Under the pieces are notes generated by a model. It was not told the origin of the DNA. It saw nothing but the letters and a program-made list of their open reading frames with translations, and did not search any database. The position numbers were made by a program, and so were the translations under genes. 25,081 nt of DNA from Monosiga brevicollis MX1 (lineage: Eukaryota > Opisthokonta > Choanoflagellata > Craspedida > Salpingoecidae): NCBI RefSeq assembly GCF_000002865.3, contig NW_001865044.1, positions 1,096,955 to 1,122,035 on the forward strand. Direction: 5' to 3'. Position 1 is the first letter of the stretch, and each line of letters starts with the position of its first letter. Below, piece after piece: positions 10,056 through 20,509 of this stretch.

Positions 10056-10121
10056 CCCCCCCCCCCCCCCCNNNNNNNNNNNNNNNNNNNNNNNNNNNNN
10101 NNNNNNNNNNNNNNNNNNNNN
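10056..10121. other. Poly-C run ending in a 50-base assembly gap
   Basis: Sixteen C residues (10056-10071) are followed by exactly 50 N (10072-10121). A poly-T run lies just before, at 10014-10028. Fifty N is a typical placeholder, so the true gap length is unknown. The homopolymer probably stopped the sequencing. Confidence 0.95.
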
Positions 10122-11196: not shown

Positions 11197-14100
11197 ATGA
11201 CTCGACCAGAACTCGCACTTCTGACACGAGGCCCGGCCTGTGCAGCAAACACCGCAGCCCCTGCCGTCTGCGCATCAAGCCTGGTCCCGCCGCTTCCAGC
11301 CCCGGTAGCAGACTCAGACCTCGTACCCACCAAACGAGGGACCACCAGTCCCGCTCCCGTGGCTGACGCAGATTCGCAGCCCACTGCCATTTCGTCCTCC
11401 TCGTCCCCGCCGGAGATTGTTGTTGCACCCGAGCTACCTGTTGCGACCGAGCGCCCCCCCTTGTCACATCAATCCTCCAGCATCTCCTCCGGCCTGACCG
11501 CTTGCTCATTAAACTCCGAACTTGGCACGACTGCCCTTCTCAACTCGGCCCTCGACTCCCACACAAGCCGCCCGCCCTCCTGGCTCCAGCAAGTTCCGAC
11601 CACATCATCCGCCCCCGCTTCCGCTCTTCCGGGCGCGACCATCCCCTTTCACCTGACTTCGCCCTCCGCCTCGCGGGTGACCTGCCATTCACCACTCCAC
11701 CACTCCCAATCCAATACTCCCCTGTCCAGCTCCACCAGCCTCTCCAGTGGAGCGAGCGCTGAGTTTCCGCCCAGCCGAGCAATTTCCCGATCCAATTCCC
11801 CGAGTCGACGGCCACCCCCCATCATGCTATCCCTTCGTGGCCCCAACACGAGCCAGGGTGGCTCGTACACCGATCTCCTTCCCACGACCCCCCTCTCCCG
11901 GCGCCACTCCGGTGATCGCATTCGCAAAGTGGCCATCCTCAACAAGGCTGCCTCAACCACCCACAGCGTCCATGGAGGTGATTTCGAAACTCGGTCTGCC
12001 CATTTTGCCTCCTCCACGCCCCCGAGCCACAGCAGCGATCCGGGTCAGGAGAATCAAACAATCCTCAAGCGCTGCACCACCATCGAGACGGACAAGATTC
12101 GCAGCATGCAGCAACAGGAGATTGAGCAGGTGAATCAATATCGAATGTTTCAGGTCCTGGGACGCGGCGCGTTTGGCACTGTCCGCCTTGCCCGCGATAT
12201 CAACTCGGACAACCTCTTTGTACGTTCTCAAACCCTTTGAAAATGCCCCCCTTTCCCCCTCCCCCCTTCTCCTCCTTCCCCCGTCCGTCTGCTTTTGTTG
12301 TTGTCCCCATGGCCTCACTCACGCGCCGCTCCCCGCGTGTCATCCCCGGATGGTGATCACAACAAAACAAACTGCTAGGCGGTCAAGTGTGTTTCAAAGC
12401 GACGCCTGCGACGAAAGACCTTTGGGCGCGCCCCGGGCTTAGCCTCCACCCGCGGTCCCACCCCAACCCGAGGTCCCAACGGGAGCATTTTTGACCTGAC
12501 TCAACAGATTGACAGCATGCTCGGACGAGAGGTCGGAATCCTCAAGCGCTTGGACCATCCCAACATTATCCGTCTCTTTGAGGTGATCAATGATCCCGAA
12601 CATGACATTGTCTACATGGTCATGGAGCTCATGCGCAGTGGTGTCGTCATGGACATGGCCAAGCCAGACTCGATCGTCCAGCTGTCCGAGACACGGGCCT
12701 GCGCTTACTTTCGCCAACTCGTGCTGGCCATTGAATACCTGCATGCCCGTCGCATCGTCCACCGGGATGTCAAACCGTCCAACCTTCTCTTGACTGATGA
12801 TGGCCTGATTAAGCTGACCGACTTTGGCGTCTCCCACTACTTTGAAGACCCCCTGACAGACTTCTGCCTCTCCCGCACCGAGGGCACCCCTGCTTTTCTT
12901 GCTCCCGAGTGTTGCGACGCCAGCGTTGAACAGTTTGATGCCCGCGCCGTGGATATCTGGGCTTGTGGCGTCACCCTCTATTGCTTTCTGTTTGGCACCA
13001 TGCCTTTCAAGGGTACTACCGCTTACGAAACCTACAATAATGTCCTCAACGAGGAAATCAGCTTTGATCCCTCCCTTCGCCCTACGCCCCTGACCCCGGA
13101 AGCCTTCAACCTCCTGCGCCGTGTGCTCGACAAGGACGCACAACAACGAATGACCATGGGTCTTCTGCGGCGTCATGCCTGGGTCACTCGCGATGACACA
13201 GATCCCATGCCCAGCGTGGCGGAAAACGTTGGACGCCAGCACATGATCTCCGTCCGAAAATCCCGCACCTACTTCAACACGGATCAGCTTGCCCTTTTGA
13301 GTCCCAGCCCGTCCCGCTCTGGTACCATGGAATCTGAGGAGCATCGCATCACGCGTGATCGAGTTGCACTTCTCGTACCCAGCCTAAGCGCCGCGAGCCG
13401 AGACTCGGTACCAGATCGCGACAGCCACCCCAGCCTGATGGTTCCCTCGCTGACGCTGGCCTCGTGCTCATCATCATCCAGCGCTCCCTCCCCAGCGCTT
13501 TCCTCCACGACATCACTTGCGACCCTGGTCATGGTCAAATGTATGCTCATGCGTCGCAGCTTTGCCCACCCTCTGCGTGCCAGACACCGGCGCCGCTTAT
13601 TGGGATCCAAGGCTTTCAATTTTGCCTCTGTCGACTCAGGCCTGAGCCATTCGCAATCAGACCTTAACGTCCTGCACCGCAACAATGACGTGGAGGCCCC
13701 CCGCGTCCGCGCTATATCCGACAGTAGCCCCATGCGTACGGGCTCGGGCAGCGCTCATCGTGTTGATCCTTCCCAACAACTGCAGCAAAGATGGGCTGAC
13801 AACCCCGTGTTGCAGGCCGCCGCCCCAGAAGCCGTTCGAATGATGCAGCCGCCGTCTGCCTCAATGGCTAGTCGCCAGGCACTGCAGCACACCCGCAGCG
13901 GCCCGAGTGAGGGCTACATGTGTGCTTCAGAACGACCAGGCGGACCCCTGATACCGACACGCCTGCCCATGACGGCCTCACCCGACAGTCTCCCCTTTGG
14001 CTCGAGCAAACCCCGCAACTTGAGCCCGACGAGCAAGGCCAATTCCCCCAAAGCCATGTTGGCGGAGCGCCAGGCGTTGGCGGCTCGGCGCGGGCTGCAG

Positions 14101-14265
14101 GCTTCAGACCGGTTCAAGAGTGGCAGTGCCACGGCTGGTCCGACTCCCCAAGCGCCTGCTTCGGCTCCTTCCTCGGCTGCACCCTTCAAAAACCTGCGTC
14201 GTCAACAGCGTTTGAAGCATGTTTTGGCCTCTCGCAATTTGATGGGGCATCACACGTCCATCTAG
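11197..14265 (+). CDS. CAMKK: Ca2+/calmodulin-dependent protein kinase kinase (CaMKK)
   Basis: Two exons (11197-12219, 12379-14265) join in phase 0 and give 969 residues. The kinase domain spans about residues 316-610: glycine loop GRGAFG 322-327, ATP lysine K344 (split from the loop by the intron), helix-C E392, catalytic HRD with D471, DFG 489-491, EGTPAF and APE 516-518. Between K344 and helix C lies an Arg/Pro/Gly-rich insert (about 352-377, RGPTPTRGP). This insert is diagnostic of CaMKKs, where it serves recognition of CaMKI/IV and AMPK. Downstream, residues 719-739 (SLATLVMVKCMLMRRSFAHPL) match the autoinhibitory/calmodulin-binding segment of animal CaMKK. About 315 Ser/Pro-rich residues precede the kinase and about 230 follow the calmodulin site, making it much longer than human CaMKK (about 500-590). 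The start is the first ATG after an in-frame stop. Likely role: Ca2+-triggered activation-loop phosphorylation of downstream kinases. Confidence 0.93.
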
Positions 14266-15179: not shown

Positions 15180-18177
15180 CTATGGACGGGAGGTTTGCAA
15201 ATAGTCGACTCGAAGTGGCACTGACTTGGTAGGCGGCCCCGTGAGATGAGACAGATACTCGCCCGGACGATAGAGCACGCCTTGCAATTGCTTGTCCAAT
15301 GGCAAGTCCCGATATGGCCGGCACCGTGCTTGAGCAGCGCCCAAATAGTTTTCAAGCTCCGCCACCTCCCGCCACGCTTGAGGCGCGCGTCGCGTCGTCA
15401 TGCTCAAAATTTCGCCACCAGCTTTGACAAGGACGACATCTGCCCATAAAAGCTTGGTAATGGCCTTGCGGAGGGATGCATCGAGTTCGGTAGGAGTGCC
15501 GACGATGTTGGTCAAGGTTGATCCCGGTCTCGAGAGCAAGGCTGGGTCAGCTAGCTGCGCCAAGTCCGACAGCCGCAGACAAGCCTGTCGTCGCAGGTGG
15601 ACGAGGGACTCAAGATAGCGCTCAGCTACCAGAAGCGCGCCCAGCTGAGGTAGTCGCCGAAATATGGCGGGTGTGATGGCGTCGACACTTGTCAGATGGG
15701 CATCCAGGCCGAGAGCGCGTGCTTGCCCGTTGTCGAGGGCCCGCTGCACGTGGTTGGGCAATTGAAGAACGAGCTCGTCAAAGCGGGAGACAAACTGAGC
15801 AAGAGTCACGCTCATTGGCGAGGCTTCACCGCGCACACGGGCAGCCTTGCTCAACAACTCGGGCACTCGATACTCATGAAAGAGGCGGACGAAGCGCTCC
15901 ACGGGCTCCATAAGCAGGACCATATCAATGACGGGAGGGGCAGCAAACGCGGGAGGACGAAAGTCTTTCCACAGAGGATCTGTGGCTCCAAAGTTGAAGG
16001 GCACGCGGTGTTTACCACGATCGGTGACGGTACGGAAGCGCTCGGCAATCTGGGATGGAATGGCCGGGGCCAGGTGTCGTCGGTAACCATAAGCGTGAAT
16101 GAGGCGCATGAGATGCTCGTCGGGGTTCCCCGGGATGCGGAAAAGAAGCAGGGATTGGCGCGGTAGGAACTGGGTATGGCACTGCGTCACGGAGGGTGGG
16201 GCCCCGGCCAGGTGTTTGAGGTGGCGACTAAAGGCCATCGAGTCCATGAGGGTGTAGCGACACTGGCGCTCAATCTCAGGCATGTTACTCTGCACCTCGA
16301 GGTAGCGACGATGTGTGTGTTCGTCGTTGGCGACCAGCGGCTCACAAGTTGAAGAAAGCGAGCGCATTTGATGTCGAAACTCGGCAAGTTCTTCAGCAAA
16401 GTCGTCGTACAGCGCAATCCGTCGCCAGAGCGAGGCGTTGAAGTGCTCAAATAGCTGGCGGTCGCAGTAGTTCATGGCAAGAATTTGCTCATCCAACTGG
16501 GTTGGGGGAGGCTTCCGAGAGCGCGAGCTGCGTTGCTTGAGAGAGATGTACAGCACGTCCTCAAGGTCCCAACACCATTCCTTCCGCAAAAGGACGAGGC
16601 TCTCATCCATGTAGTTGGTAACCAGGACGAAGAATGTTTTTTCCATGTCTGCAATCAAATTTGCAATCTCGTCTGGTGAGGGCTGGGTGCCGAGGCCGAG
16701 GTCAAAGCACTGGCTGTTCTCGAGGAGATTGCGGTCACCCTTATTGGCAATGTCCCAGTCTAGCTTTTGCATAAACTCCTCCAGGCTAACGTCTCGTTTT
16801 GTGCGAGCGCGAATGTGAGCAGGCACGGCCCAATAAGTCCAAGATGACTTGACATGGCTCACGGGGTCACGTAAAACGGTGATATATGGCGCGTCTGGTA
16901 CGAGCGCATCCAGCGCCGGGCGCGAATACCTGGAAACCGACGCATTCATCAAGGCAGAGGCGAATGAGCGAGGACCTTGACGACACCAAAAGGAATTGCC
17001 TTCTGCATGGTCGGGCTGAGACCCGGTGCGACTGACCGGACGTGCGCTGAGCAGAGCACATCGTAAGACTACGTGGGCCAACGTCGCAAACGACATGCGC
17101 AGTCGATGAGTTCAGAGACGGACAATGGTGGTGTGGACCTTCAAAGTCGCGACCGATTCCAGAAGGCGAGGCTAATCTCGCAACCACAAACCTTCCTCGG
17201 ATGGCGATGCTGATCCCAAACGGTATTGATGATTCGCGACGCATTCAAATTTGGCCAGGAGTAGAACAGGTCATCGCGGGGCAGTGCAGCTGCCAGATCT
17301 GCAGTAGCATGGTTGAGGGTGTGGGGCCAGGCGGCAGCAGCCGACCACAGGTGGTGCATGAGATGTAGATCAAGCGTATGTCTGCGTAATGCGATCGGGC
17401 AGGGCGAGTCTGCGGGAGGCACGCGTTGACCCACCATGTTTGTGGGTAAAGCGATGAAAAATGTTGGCCAGCGTGGAGGATCCCGTCTTGTGAGTTTTGA
17501 TGTAGACAAACCGCTTGATCATGCCCTCGCGGGCGGCGCAACGTTCGTGGCTCTGAAAGCGTTTGGTGCTGGCCTAGATGACATGCGCAGGGCCCAAGCA
17601 AAGATGAGAATGCGGCTGATATGGTTTCCTCGGTTCATCGATGCCGATCACATGGAGGGGTAGGGCCAAGGTAGTCGGCTGGAACTTGCTTGATAGACAT
17701 TTGGCTGACTTGTGTCAATGAGAGGCTTGATGGTAATTTGATCGCGCGCCGCCATGCCTGGCACTTTGTAATCAATCTCGAAAGCGAGCGTTTCACTCAG
17801 GTTTCCCCCTTGCCACGCATCGGGATCGCCGCCTCCCTCCTCCTCCTCCTTGGCGGCCCAGGCGTCATGGAGTGCTCGAGGCTGTTCTAAGATGCTGCAC
17901 AGCCAAGCGGCCAGAGGCGTTCAGGGTCAGCAGCACGTGGTGCATCGTTGAGGATGTACAGACAGACGGACGAGCCTTGGGCGTACCCGTCAAAGATGGC
18001 GTCTGGGTCCTTTGCATGCCAGCGGTCCACGAGCCACCACCAGGCTATCATGACCCCCACGATGCCGACGGGGCCCAAGGCCGCCAACCTCCGACGCCAG
18101 ACAACCCGCATGACTGCTCGTCGCCTTTCGCGCCCGACCACACGAAATGGCGAGCCCCTTGCTGAATTTGCATGCAT
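15180..18177 (-). CDS. Gal-3-O-sulfotransferase (GAL3ST family), tandem-domain, type II Golgi membrane protein
   Basis: Minus-strand exons are 18177-17987, 17894 to about 17690-17655, 17573-17435, 17409-17192, and about 17014-15180. Exon 1 encodes a short basic tail and one membrane anchor (LAALGPVGIVGVMIAWWWLV), the type II Golgi layout. Exon 3 carries the PAPS 5'-phosphosulfate motif VYIKTHKTGSSTLANI (17472-17501 core). Exon 4 has ALPRDDLFYSWPN, like the ALPRD segment of animal GAL3STs. Exon 5 has the 3'-phosphate motif ITVLRDPVSHVKSSW (16839-16876), then FDLGL, YMDESLVLLRKEWCWDLEDVLY and FNASLWRRI, all family landmarks. The enzyme should transfer sulfate from PAPS to C3 of galactose on glycolipid or glycan. 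After domain 1 the frame continues about 330 residues into a second, degenerate domain. The product is about 870 residues, roughly twice the usual size. The exon 2 donor and exon 5 acceptor (17014 or 16929) are uncertain. Confidence 0.85.
15230..16160 (-). other. Second, degenerate sulfotransferase domain within the GAL3ST gene
   Basis: By eye the C-terminal part aligns to domain 1 in the same order. SLLLFRIPGNPDEHLMRLIHAYGY (16086-16156) stands where the PAPS-binding THKTGSST strand-loop-helix should be. MVLLMEPVERFVRLFHEY (15870-15923) replaces LRDPVSHVKSSW. LGLDAHL with LVAERYLESLVHLRRQACLRLSDL replaces FDLGLG with YMDESLVLLRKEWCWDLEDVL. REVAELENYLGAAQARC matches the closing helix AEFRHQMRSLSSTC. 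The fold landmarks persist, but the Lys/Gly/Ser residues that hold PAPS are gone, so this copy is probably not catalytic. It is part of the same open frame, not a separate gene. Confidence 0.7.
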
Positions 18178-18634: not shown

Positions 18635-20509
18635 ATGAAGCCGATTTTGTATTTCATCGACAAGTCATGGGCGCCTTCGCAGAACCGCGGGCGCATCTGG
18701 AAGGAACGGCTGGTTCAATTGGGCGCCACGGTCACCGAGTCTCCCGAGACGGCAACGCACGCTATTGTCGGACGCACTCGCCATGTGCCGGCCCCGATTG
18801 CTGCTTTGACTCCGCACTTGCGCTTAGTGGGAGCCCCGGCCATTAATGATGTCTTGCGCGAACGCTGTCTTGATGCGCTTGAGCGAGAAGCCCACCACAT
18901 AGTAGTTGACGTGACCGGTGGGGTCCCGGCCAACTTTGCGCTCGATGCTCCTGAGAGCAAGCCCCGTGCGGATCCAGATGCCAGCGGCTCTGACCGTGCC
19001 ACGCCGGTGCCGGGCACTGATGAACAACAGGAGGCCACACGCGTCAAACGCTCTCCTGCCTCCCACTCAAGCTCCCTCTCAGGTGCAGCGCCTCCTCTCA
19101 AACGCCGAAACGCGCTTGCCGCCGGTATGTTTTTTGCCTTTGGGCTGGGATACCAAGCAGAGCCTAGCCGGGGCCACAGCTGAATGGAAGCCTCTCCCCT
19201 CACATCAGACCTTGGCTTGGCGACACTTTGTCCTTGATTCTTCTCATGTTGATTGATGCTCGCCCCTGCCGCTTTCTTTGAGACGCACGTAGATGCGTCT
19301 GGTCTCTCCCCCGGGTCTCGTTCGCGACGTCTGATGCAGGACGGGGAAGTCAGCCCCGAAGTACCAACACGAACGCCGCCCCGCAGAGCTGACTGCCAGC
19401 AGCTGGTGGGCTGCTTCTGGGCCGTAAGTCGAGACCATGGCAACAAACCACTGGTCGCCGCCCTTGAGCTGCTTTCCTTTGATCGAGAAATGCACGGAGG
19501 CCTTCAGGTGCCGCACGCTGCCACAGCCTCCAGCTCCTCGCTAGCCTACCGACGTGCTGCCATGGCGCTGCGCGCGATTCCGTTTGAGGTGCAAAGCCTG
19601 GACCAGCTGACCAATCTCCCGCTTCTCAATCGCGCAGCACATGAGGCCGTACAGTGGGTGCTGGACCATGGGACGTTGGCCGGCTTCCCGCGGCTCTATC
19701 ATGAAAGCGATCTCGATGCGCTTCGGGACCTGCGTCGACTCTGGGGCGTTGGGGTGCGATTGGCCTGGCAATTTTTGCAGCACGGTTGGCGGTCTGCCGA
19801 GGCCGTGGTCAAGGCTGTTCACGAGGGTAAATTGAAACCTGCCAACGCACAACTCGAAGCCTGCTGTCGTGACTGGACAGACTTGTGCTTGCCCATTCCC
19901 CGAGAGCGCATTGATGCGCTGCGAGTCTGGATACTAGGCCTCGTGCAAGCGGCAGACCCGGGTGCGCGGGTGACTGTCACGGGTGGTTACCGACGAGGGA
20001 ATTCAGAGTGTCACGATGTAGACTTGATCATTGCCGCCAGTGCCATGGCGCCCGGGGCTTTGCTGCAGCGCGTGCTAGCAGATGTTCGCCAGGCAGGCTG
20101 CCTGGTGTACGCACAGGATGGTGCCGGCCCAGCAGCCGCGGAGGCGCATCAGAGCCTTCAGCGCAAGCTCTCTTCGCGTGCGCTGCCGCTGCAGCGCTCG
20201 CACTCTACTTTTGATGACTTGCCCCGCGCGCTCTGCATCATCTGCGAACCCGAGACCAAGACCAAGCGCAGGGTCGACTTGGTGCTCTGTGCAGCCGCCC
20301 AGGAACCCTTTGCGGTCTTGGGTTGGACGGGGAACCGCATGTATAACAGGGAGATACGCCGCTGGGCCGATGCACACGGCTTTCATCTCACGGCCGCCGG
20401 CTTGTGGGATCTTGAGCAAGGCGGCGTCTTTGTACCTGCCGAATCACCAACTGCCATACAACGCCTGCTGGGCCTGCCCACTTTGTCCCCCGAACAACGA
20501 CATCATTGA
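18635..20509 (+). CDS. Family X DNA polymerase, Pol mu/TdT type, with N-terminal BRCT-like domain
   Basis: Two exons (18635-19124, 19293-20509) join in phase 1 and give 568 residues. Residues 1 to about 85 look like a BRCT domain (ILYFIDKSW, ATHAIVGRTRHV, LRLVGAPAINDVL). About 85-205 is a polar linker. The 8-kDa/helix-hairpin-helix part follows, with LWGVGVRLA at 313-321. The palm has TGGYRRG (394-399 core) then HDVD with D405 and D407, and the third carboxylate D492 in RRVDLVL. G507-W508 (LGWTGN) replaces the Tyr-Phe of Pol beta and lambda, and H404 before the Asp pair is also a Pol mu/TdT trait. A long segment before D492 fits an extended Loop 1. The C-terminus IQRLLGLPTLSPEQRHH closely resembles that of Pol mu. 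Expected role: gap filling in non-homologous end joining, with the BRCT domain docking on Ku/XRCC4-ligase IV. Template-independent activity cannot be judged. Confidence 0.9.

Follow-up and report, generated by a model that had tools for sequence, protein, structure and literature searches.

Gene structure at the locus

The window, the whole 25,081-nucleotide stretch of Monosiga brevicollis DNA analysed here, contains a minus-strand gene predicted to encode two galactose-3-O-sulfotransferase (GAL3ST) domains in one chain, an intact domain and a degenerate domain, hereinafter designated D1 and D2, respectively. A protein kinase domain (12517-14265, plus strand; PF00069, 1.7e-49) is convergent with the sulfotransferase gene. 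Matches to a DNA polymerase of the beta/lambda type lie at 19253-20509 on the plus strand (thumb, PF14791, 3.6e-16; palm, PF14792, 1.6e-9), and 50 Ns at 10072-10121 probably mark an assembly gap. The 3' flank was also scanned for sigma-70 promoters and terminators, and the outcome was set aside as irrelevant for a eukaryote.

The longest stop-free stretch on the minus strand extends over 17111-15183 (643 codons). The first-pass annotation had proposed one continuous minus-strand frame over 15180-17573, which does not hold: translation of these coordinates gives four internal stops (17372-17370, 17273-17271, 17174-17172, and 17114-17112), all upstream of 17111. With three GT-AG introns spliced out, located by eye and then checked for reading frame, a 658-residue core without a stop is obtained, and the landmarks of the family follow in order. 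Three of the four stops are intronic in this model, and the stop at 17273 is exonic and falls in another frame once the transcript is spliced. Because of this placement of the stops, and because D1 keeps its motifs, a pseudogene reading was rejected.

The exon with the 5'-PAPS motif of D1 lies at 17435-17522 (minus strand, as for all exons, introns, and motifs of this gene). Its upstream limit is ambiguous; in 15 of the 27 possible joins to the preceding exon, the acceptors lie between 17575 and 17527. It is followed by intron 1 (17299-17434; GTGGGT...CTGCAG, 136 nt), a D1 exon beginning HDLAAALPRDDLFYSWPNLNAS (17192-17298), intron 2 (17069-17191; GTTTGT...CACGTAG, 123 nt), a short D1 exon encoding SYDVLCSAHVR, which includes His74 (17037-17068), and intron 3 (16930-17036; GTCAGT...TTCCAG, 107 nt). 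The last exon (15180-16929, stop codon 15182-15180) contains the remainder of D1, a linker, and the whole of D2. There is no intron between D1 and D2, which are joined inside this one 1.75-kb exon.

A probable first exon lies further upstream, at 17987-18111. It begins with an ATG at 18111, which is beyond the coordinates of the first-pass annotation and is probably the start of the gene, and it encodes a hydrophobic, anchor-like stretch, MRVVWRRRLAALGPVGIVGVMIAWWWLVDRWH. The 3' end of this exon is a prediction, and its join is ambiguous: 27 joins are formally possible, the donor GTACGC at 17986 being one of them. The hydrophobic stretch, called by eye, is likely an N-terminal anchor of the kind found in type II membrane proteins of the Golgi. 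The gene models of two related loci described below, C47 and C30, likewise open with a hydrophobic stretch.

D1 keeps the motifs of the family

The open reading frame matches the Pfam family PF06990 (Gal-3-0_sulfotr) with 129.8 bits (1.7e-37; gathering cut-off 27), and its N-terminal half alone reaches 125.2 bits. D1 contains an intact 5'-phosphosulfate loop, KTHKTGSST (17472-17498), and an intact 3'-phosphate motif, LRDPVSHVKSS (16842-16874). In a profile alignment, two residues of D1 fall on like residues of HS2ST: His74, in the SAH motif, on a His, and the Lys of HKT on the Lys of PKT. The aligned His of HS2ST is catalytic. By eye, D1 His74 appears to correspond to H141 of human CST; the residue labels used below are the human CST numbers found in the accessible text of a docking study that used a computed model (PMC11500956). 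The working parts of sulfotransferases, as given in the accessible text of PMC11625862, are a loop Lys, a Ser, and a base, which is His or Glu. D1 keeps every motif residue checked in the alignment, including the 5' loop Lys, the 3'-phosphate Ser, and the His. D1 is probably an ordinary GAL3ST-type enzyme, with catalysis predicted from these residues.

The domain plan recurs at two other loci

In the 39.5-Mb genome (57 contigs), PF06990 has at least 11 matches, which were placed in five loci. C47 (L009, 869500-879000; gene at 2618 to about 6727, plus strand) encodes 1193 aa in the order active-active-dead, its third domain being without PAPS motifs. C30 (L012) encodes 747 aa in the order active-dead. 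Both spliced frames are open, with GT-AG introns, and both last domains pass the Pfam cut-off, with 51.7 bits for C47 and 64.5 bits for C30. Three of the five GAL3ST loci (the window, C47, and C30) end in a dead domain behind an intact one. The presence of two live GAL3ST domains in one chain, as predicted for C47, would be unusual in itself.

This recurrence bears on whether D1 and D2 belong to one protein. The gene was read from DNA, and D1 and D2 might be separate proteins, or might have been fused by annotation or assembly. We consider this very improbable. D1 and D2 lie in one intron-free open stretch, the run of Ns mentioned above is the only one in the window, and the same plan is found at two other loci. 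Because the plan recurs, a one-off or an assembly fusion is unlikely, and the latter was rejected.

The remaining two loci are both on C56. The gene at 1.378 Mb (L010) is single-domain-like, and the profiles gave no further domain across its 9 kb. The locus at about 2.93 Mb (L011:1005-4991, plus strand) is a single open frame encoding 1329 residues. It contains a Fringe-like glycosyltransferase domain (PF02434, 7.7e-11) and, at the C-terminus, a GAL3ST-like domain (44.2 bits). The latter keeps H84 and K85, and has Asn-Ile at S88-S89 and Glu at the 3'-phosphate Arg. The long stretch before it has no match in Pfam or among PDB sequences. This frame appears to join a glycosyltransferase to a further altered sulfotransferase domain, which groups in the tree with the single-domain C56 gene (support 100/98).

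Searches within the genome with single dead domains returned matches at these loci. D2 of the window alone gave two matches, itself and the dead domain of C47 (E 0.0014). The dead domain of C47 gave seven, all at known GAL3ST loci, and missed the dead domain of C30. Viral contigs and prokaryote genomes gave 150 and 50 pattern matches, respectively, among which no relative was confirmed, and tblastn against phages gave no match.

D2 is homologous to GAL3ST domains by sequence comparison

D2 comprises 332 residues (15183-16178). The earlier observation that about 330 residues repeat the GAL3ST landmarks after the GAL3ST domain is confirmed, and the repeat lies in the same exon. The Pfam model, which had been suggested as a check on each half separately, bears out the N-terminal half and fails to recover the C-terminal one: D2 alone scores 11.5 bits (E 0.14), below the cut-off of 27. 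Because the Pfam match of D2 alone is insignificant, we used profiles built from the same genome, together with shuffled controls.

When four active domains from the other loci are combined into a profile, with no window sequence included, this profile matches D2 with 42.7 bits (E 2.6e-15, calculated for a search against a single sequence). For the same profile, the best score is 5.8 bits in 1000 shuffles of D2 and 6.4 bits in all 3000 shuffles. The two halves also match each other directly, as the first-pass annotation had read them by eye (BLAST of D1 against D2, E 1.4e-5), and D2 matches the second domain of C47 with an E-value of 9e-9. Comparison of the profile of the four active domains with a profile of the three dead domains, D2 included, gives a probability of 99.8 (E 4.5e-28); with D2 removed from the dead set, the probability is 99.6. 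These comparisons, resting on same-genome profiles and on the sister genes, argue that D2 is homologous to GAL3ST domains.

When the window and the four other loci were scanned in all six frames with either profile, the matches at E <=0.01 were confined to the GAL3ST stretches described here. Against PDB sequences, the open reading frame of the window and the dead domains each gave one chance match (E 0.51 and E 0.66, respectively). An AlphaFold model of D2 computed from two sequences (D2 and one window row) has a mean pLDDT of 36.1, which makes it unusable for the fold.

Loss of the PAPS motifs in D2 and in the other dead domains

Both PAPS motifs are replaced in D2, and the replacements FRIPGNPD and MEPVERFVRL are present as the first reading gave them. 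The decayed 5' loop, FRIPGNPDEH (16113-16142), has Asp-Glu where active domains have Ser-Ser. The decayed 3'-phosphate motif, LLMEPVERFVRLF (15879-15917), has Met in place of Arg and Arg-Leu in place of Ser-Ser. Specifically, H84 is changed to Pro, K85 to Gly, S88-S89 to Asp-Glu, the 3'-phosphate Ser to Arg, and the residue aligned with H141, which lies in a poorly aligned stretch, to Pro.

The other two dead domains have lost largely the same residues. H84, K85, S88, S89, the 3'-phosphate Ser, and the aligned H141, in its poorly aligned column, are replaced in all three. K82 is also replaced in all three, in D2 by Arg, a conservative change; in the profile alignment, HS2ST has Arg at this position. 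T83 is replaced in one dead domain and kept in two, and the 3'-phosphate Arg is replaced in two and kept by C30. As part of the reading of D2 as a pseudo-sulfotransferase partner, which is set out below, D2 is rather likely to be unable to bind PAPS.

The alignment is free of gaps across the first motif, where the SS of KTHKTGSST has become DE in the window, DD in C47, and DD in C30. That both Ser88 and Ser89 are acidic in all three dead domains, the first always being Asp, looks selected. The acidic pair might bind a cation or a basic acceptor, or might serve a different reaction, in which case D2 would have gained a new activity or ligand. We regard such a gain as improbable, as no other credible family was found for the dead domains in Pfam or among PDB sequences.

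Comparison of the seven domains, four active and three dead, shows what has been retained. Nine of the 245 gap-free columns are invariant across all seven, among them two Cys positions and Glu-Ser within the DESLV motif, which would fit a retained fold in the dead domains. D2 keeps 19 of the 70 columns that are invariant in the active domains, and the other two dead domains keep 27 and 25. By this measure, D2 has diverged furthest among the dead domains.

Origin of the dead domains

The dead domains have five states in common that are absent from the four active domains. Shuffles have 0.58 such states on average, and 1 of 5000 attains five. Pairwise sharing among the dead domains also exceeds that in shuffles (reached by 60, 0, and 0 of 5000), with the caveat that the dead rows were aligned together, which may favour matches of this kind. 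Because the shared replacements exceed those in shuffles, a single origin of the dead domains is favoured by the sequences, though not shown.

Alternatively, each gene could have undergone its own tandem duplication, with the second copy losing function each time. The trees leave room for this. The branch uniting the dead domains is weakly supported (58/65 with the C56 domains and 67/57 without them), D2 is the longest branch in both trees, and the tree program warns of long branches. Trees constrained to group D1 with D2, or the domains of one gene with each other, are not rejected in any of five groupings (p-AU 0.09 to 0.15). Set against this are the five states shared three ways, compared with 0.58 expected, and the excess of pairwise sharing, which the joint alignment may have raised. 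On balance, separate origins seem unlikely.

Retention and possible role of D2

First-order Markov sequences simulated with the dinucleotide composition of the 326-codon C-terminal half stay open over that length in only 6 of 20,000 cases, and GC is lowest at the second codon position in D2, as it is in D1. The occurrence of a dead last domain in three genes suggests that it is kept for a purpose. D2 could instead be vestigial: the product of a domain duplication that drifts without function and is tolerated at the C-terminus. Its strong divergence, its position as the longest branch in both trees, and its score below the Pfam cut-off would be expected of such a remnant. However, an open frame of this length is rare by chance, two sister genes keep such a domain at the same place, and the dead domains have specific replacements and core residues in common. 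A vestige is therefore quite unlikely in our judgement.

We consider the best reading to be a Golgi sulfotransferase that has retained a pseudo-sulfotransferase domain as a partner, and we hold this reading to be somewhat probable. A fusion of an active enzyme with a pseudo-enzyme had been proposed at the outset, and the analysis agrees with it: D1 has every motif residue checked, D2 is homologous to it, the motif residues of D2 are mostly lost, and the plan is present at two other loci. The sequences support the homology of D2, the loss of its motifs, the intactness of D1, and the same state of the last domain in two sister genes.

The first-pass annotation had suggested glycan binding, internal dimerisation, or regulation as possible roles of D2. 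In general, a dead copy joined to a live enzyme may provide a permanent dimer partner, a module that binds the acceptor, or a means of regulation. The gene product here would be a carbohydrate sulfotransferase belonging to the galactose-3-O-sulfotransferase family and held in the membrane as a type II protein, a topology predicted from the putative anchor. D1 would be the working, PAPS-dependent enzyme. D2 would be a pseudo-sulfotransferase that has kept the structural core of the family and lost PAPS binding, and it would serve D1 in cis, as a partner built into the same chain. It might pack on D1 like the other half of a dimer, or it might hold the acceptor glycan beside the active site; either arrangement would tune the activity or specificity of D1. 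A partner or acceptor-binding role is, we think, the preferred one.

Comparison with known systems

Among known enzymes, the closest in kind are GAL3ST1/CST to GAL3ST4 (PF06990). D1 fits the family model, has KTHKTGSST and LRDPVSHVKSS, and likely follows an anchor. Animal GAL3STs have a single domain of about 400-480 residues. In contrast, the chain described here has a second, putatively PAPS-dead domain, and one sister gene has three domains.

HS2ST and HS6ST are more distant. They are the sole PDB sequences matched at E <=1 by the active-domain profile (0.007, 0.007, and 0.012), and the matched stretch of HS2ST covers both PAPS motifs and a His. However, they belong to a different family and the match is weak. 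HS2ST and HS6ST have a single catalytic domain.

The idea of dead sulfotransferases is already known. In its accessible text, PMC9539457, the one paper found to use the term, names pseudosulfotransferases as a class in a list of pseudoenzymes, citing a 2019 review and naming no protein. Our literature search, which covered chiefly open-access papers, found nothing on GAL3ST together with Monosiga or on two sulfotransferase domains. No active-dead GAL3ST tandem is described in the accessible text of PMC11625862. In their accessible parts, PMC6040629 names only a heparan-sulfate 6-O-sulfotransferase, PMC9346353 has Monosiga only in a reference, and neither covers GAL3ST. A search for Gal-3-O-sulfotransferase and domain architecture led to a paper that, by its title and abstract, concerns mucin engineering. 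In the literature searched, we found no description of a GAL3ST tandem with a dead last domain at three loci.

A dead domain retained in three genes of a probable close relative of animals would offer a simple system in which to study the role of such domains, and would bear on the pre-animal organisation of sulfation on cell-surface sugars. The genome also provides a set for comparison: the window and C30 have one live domain, C47 has two, and the C56 gene at 1.378 Mb gave no dead domain.

Regulation of a live paralogue by a pseudo-enzyme is well known among kinases. A model for the possible action of D2, by analogy, is the Fam20A-Fam20C pair of the secretory pathway, in which, according to the accessible text of PMC4421793, a pseudokinase raises the activity of its live paralogue. 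The pair differs in being of an unrelated enzyme class and in forming a complex of two proteins, whereas D2 is fused in cis and its effect on D1 would be a matter of prediction. A broader proposal, which we put forward tentatively and hold to be possible rather than probable, is that the dead domains constitute an old, dedicated class of pseudo-sulfotransferases of single origin, marked by the acidic pair, placed C-terminally in chains with one or two enzymes, and controlling or positioning sulfation in cis. Such a class would be the sulfotransferase counterpart of Fam20A.
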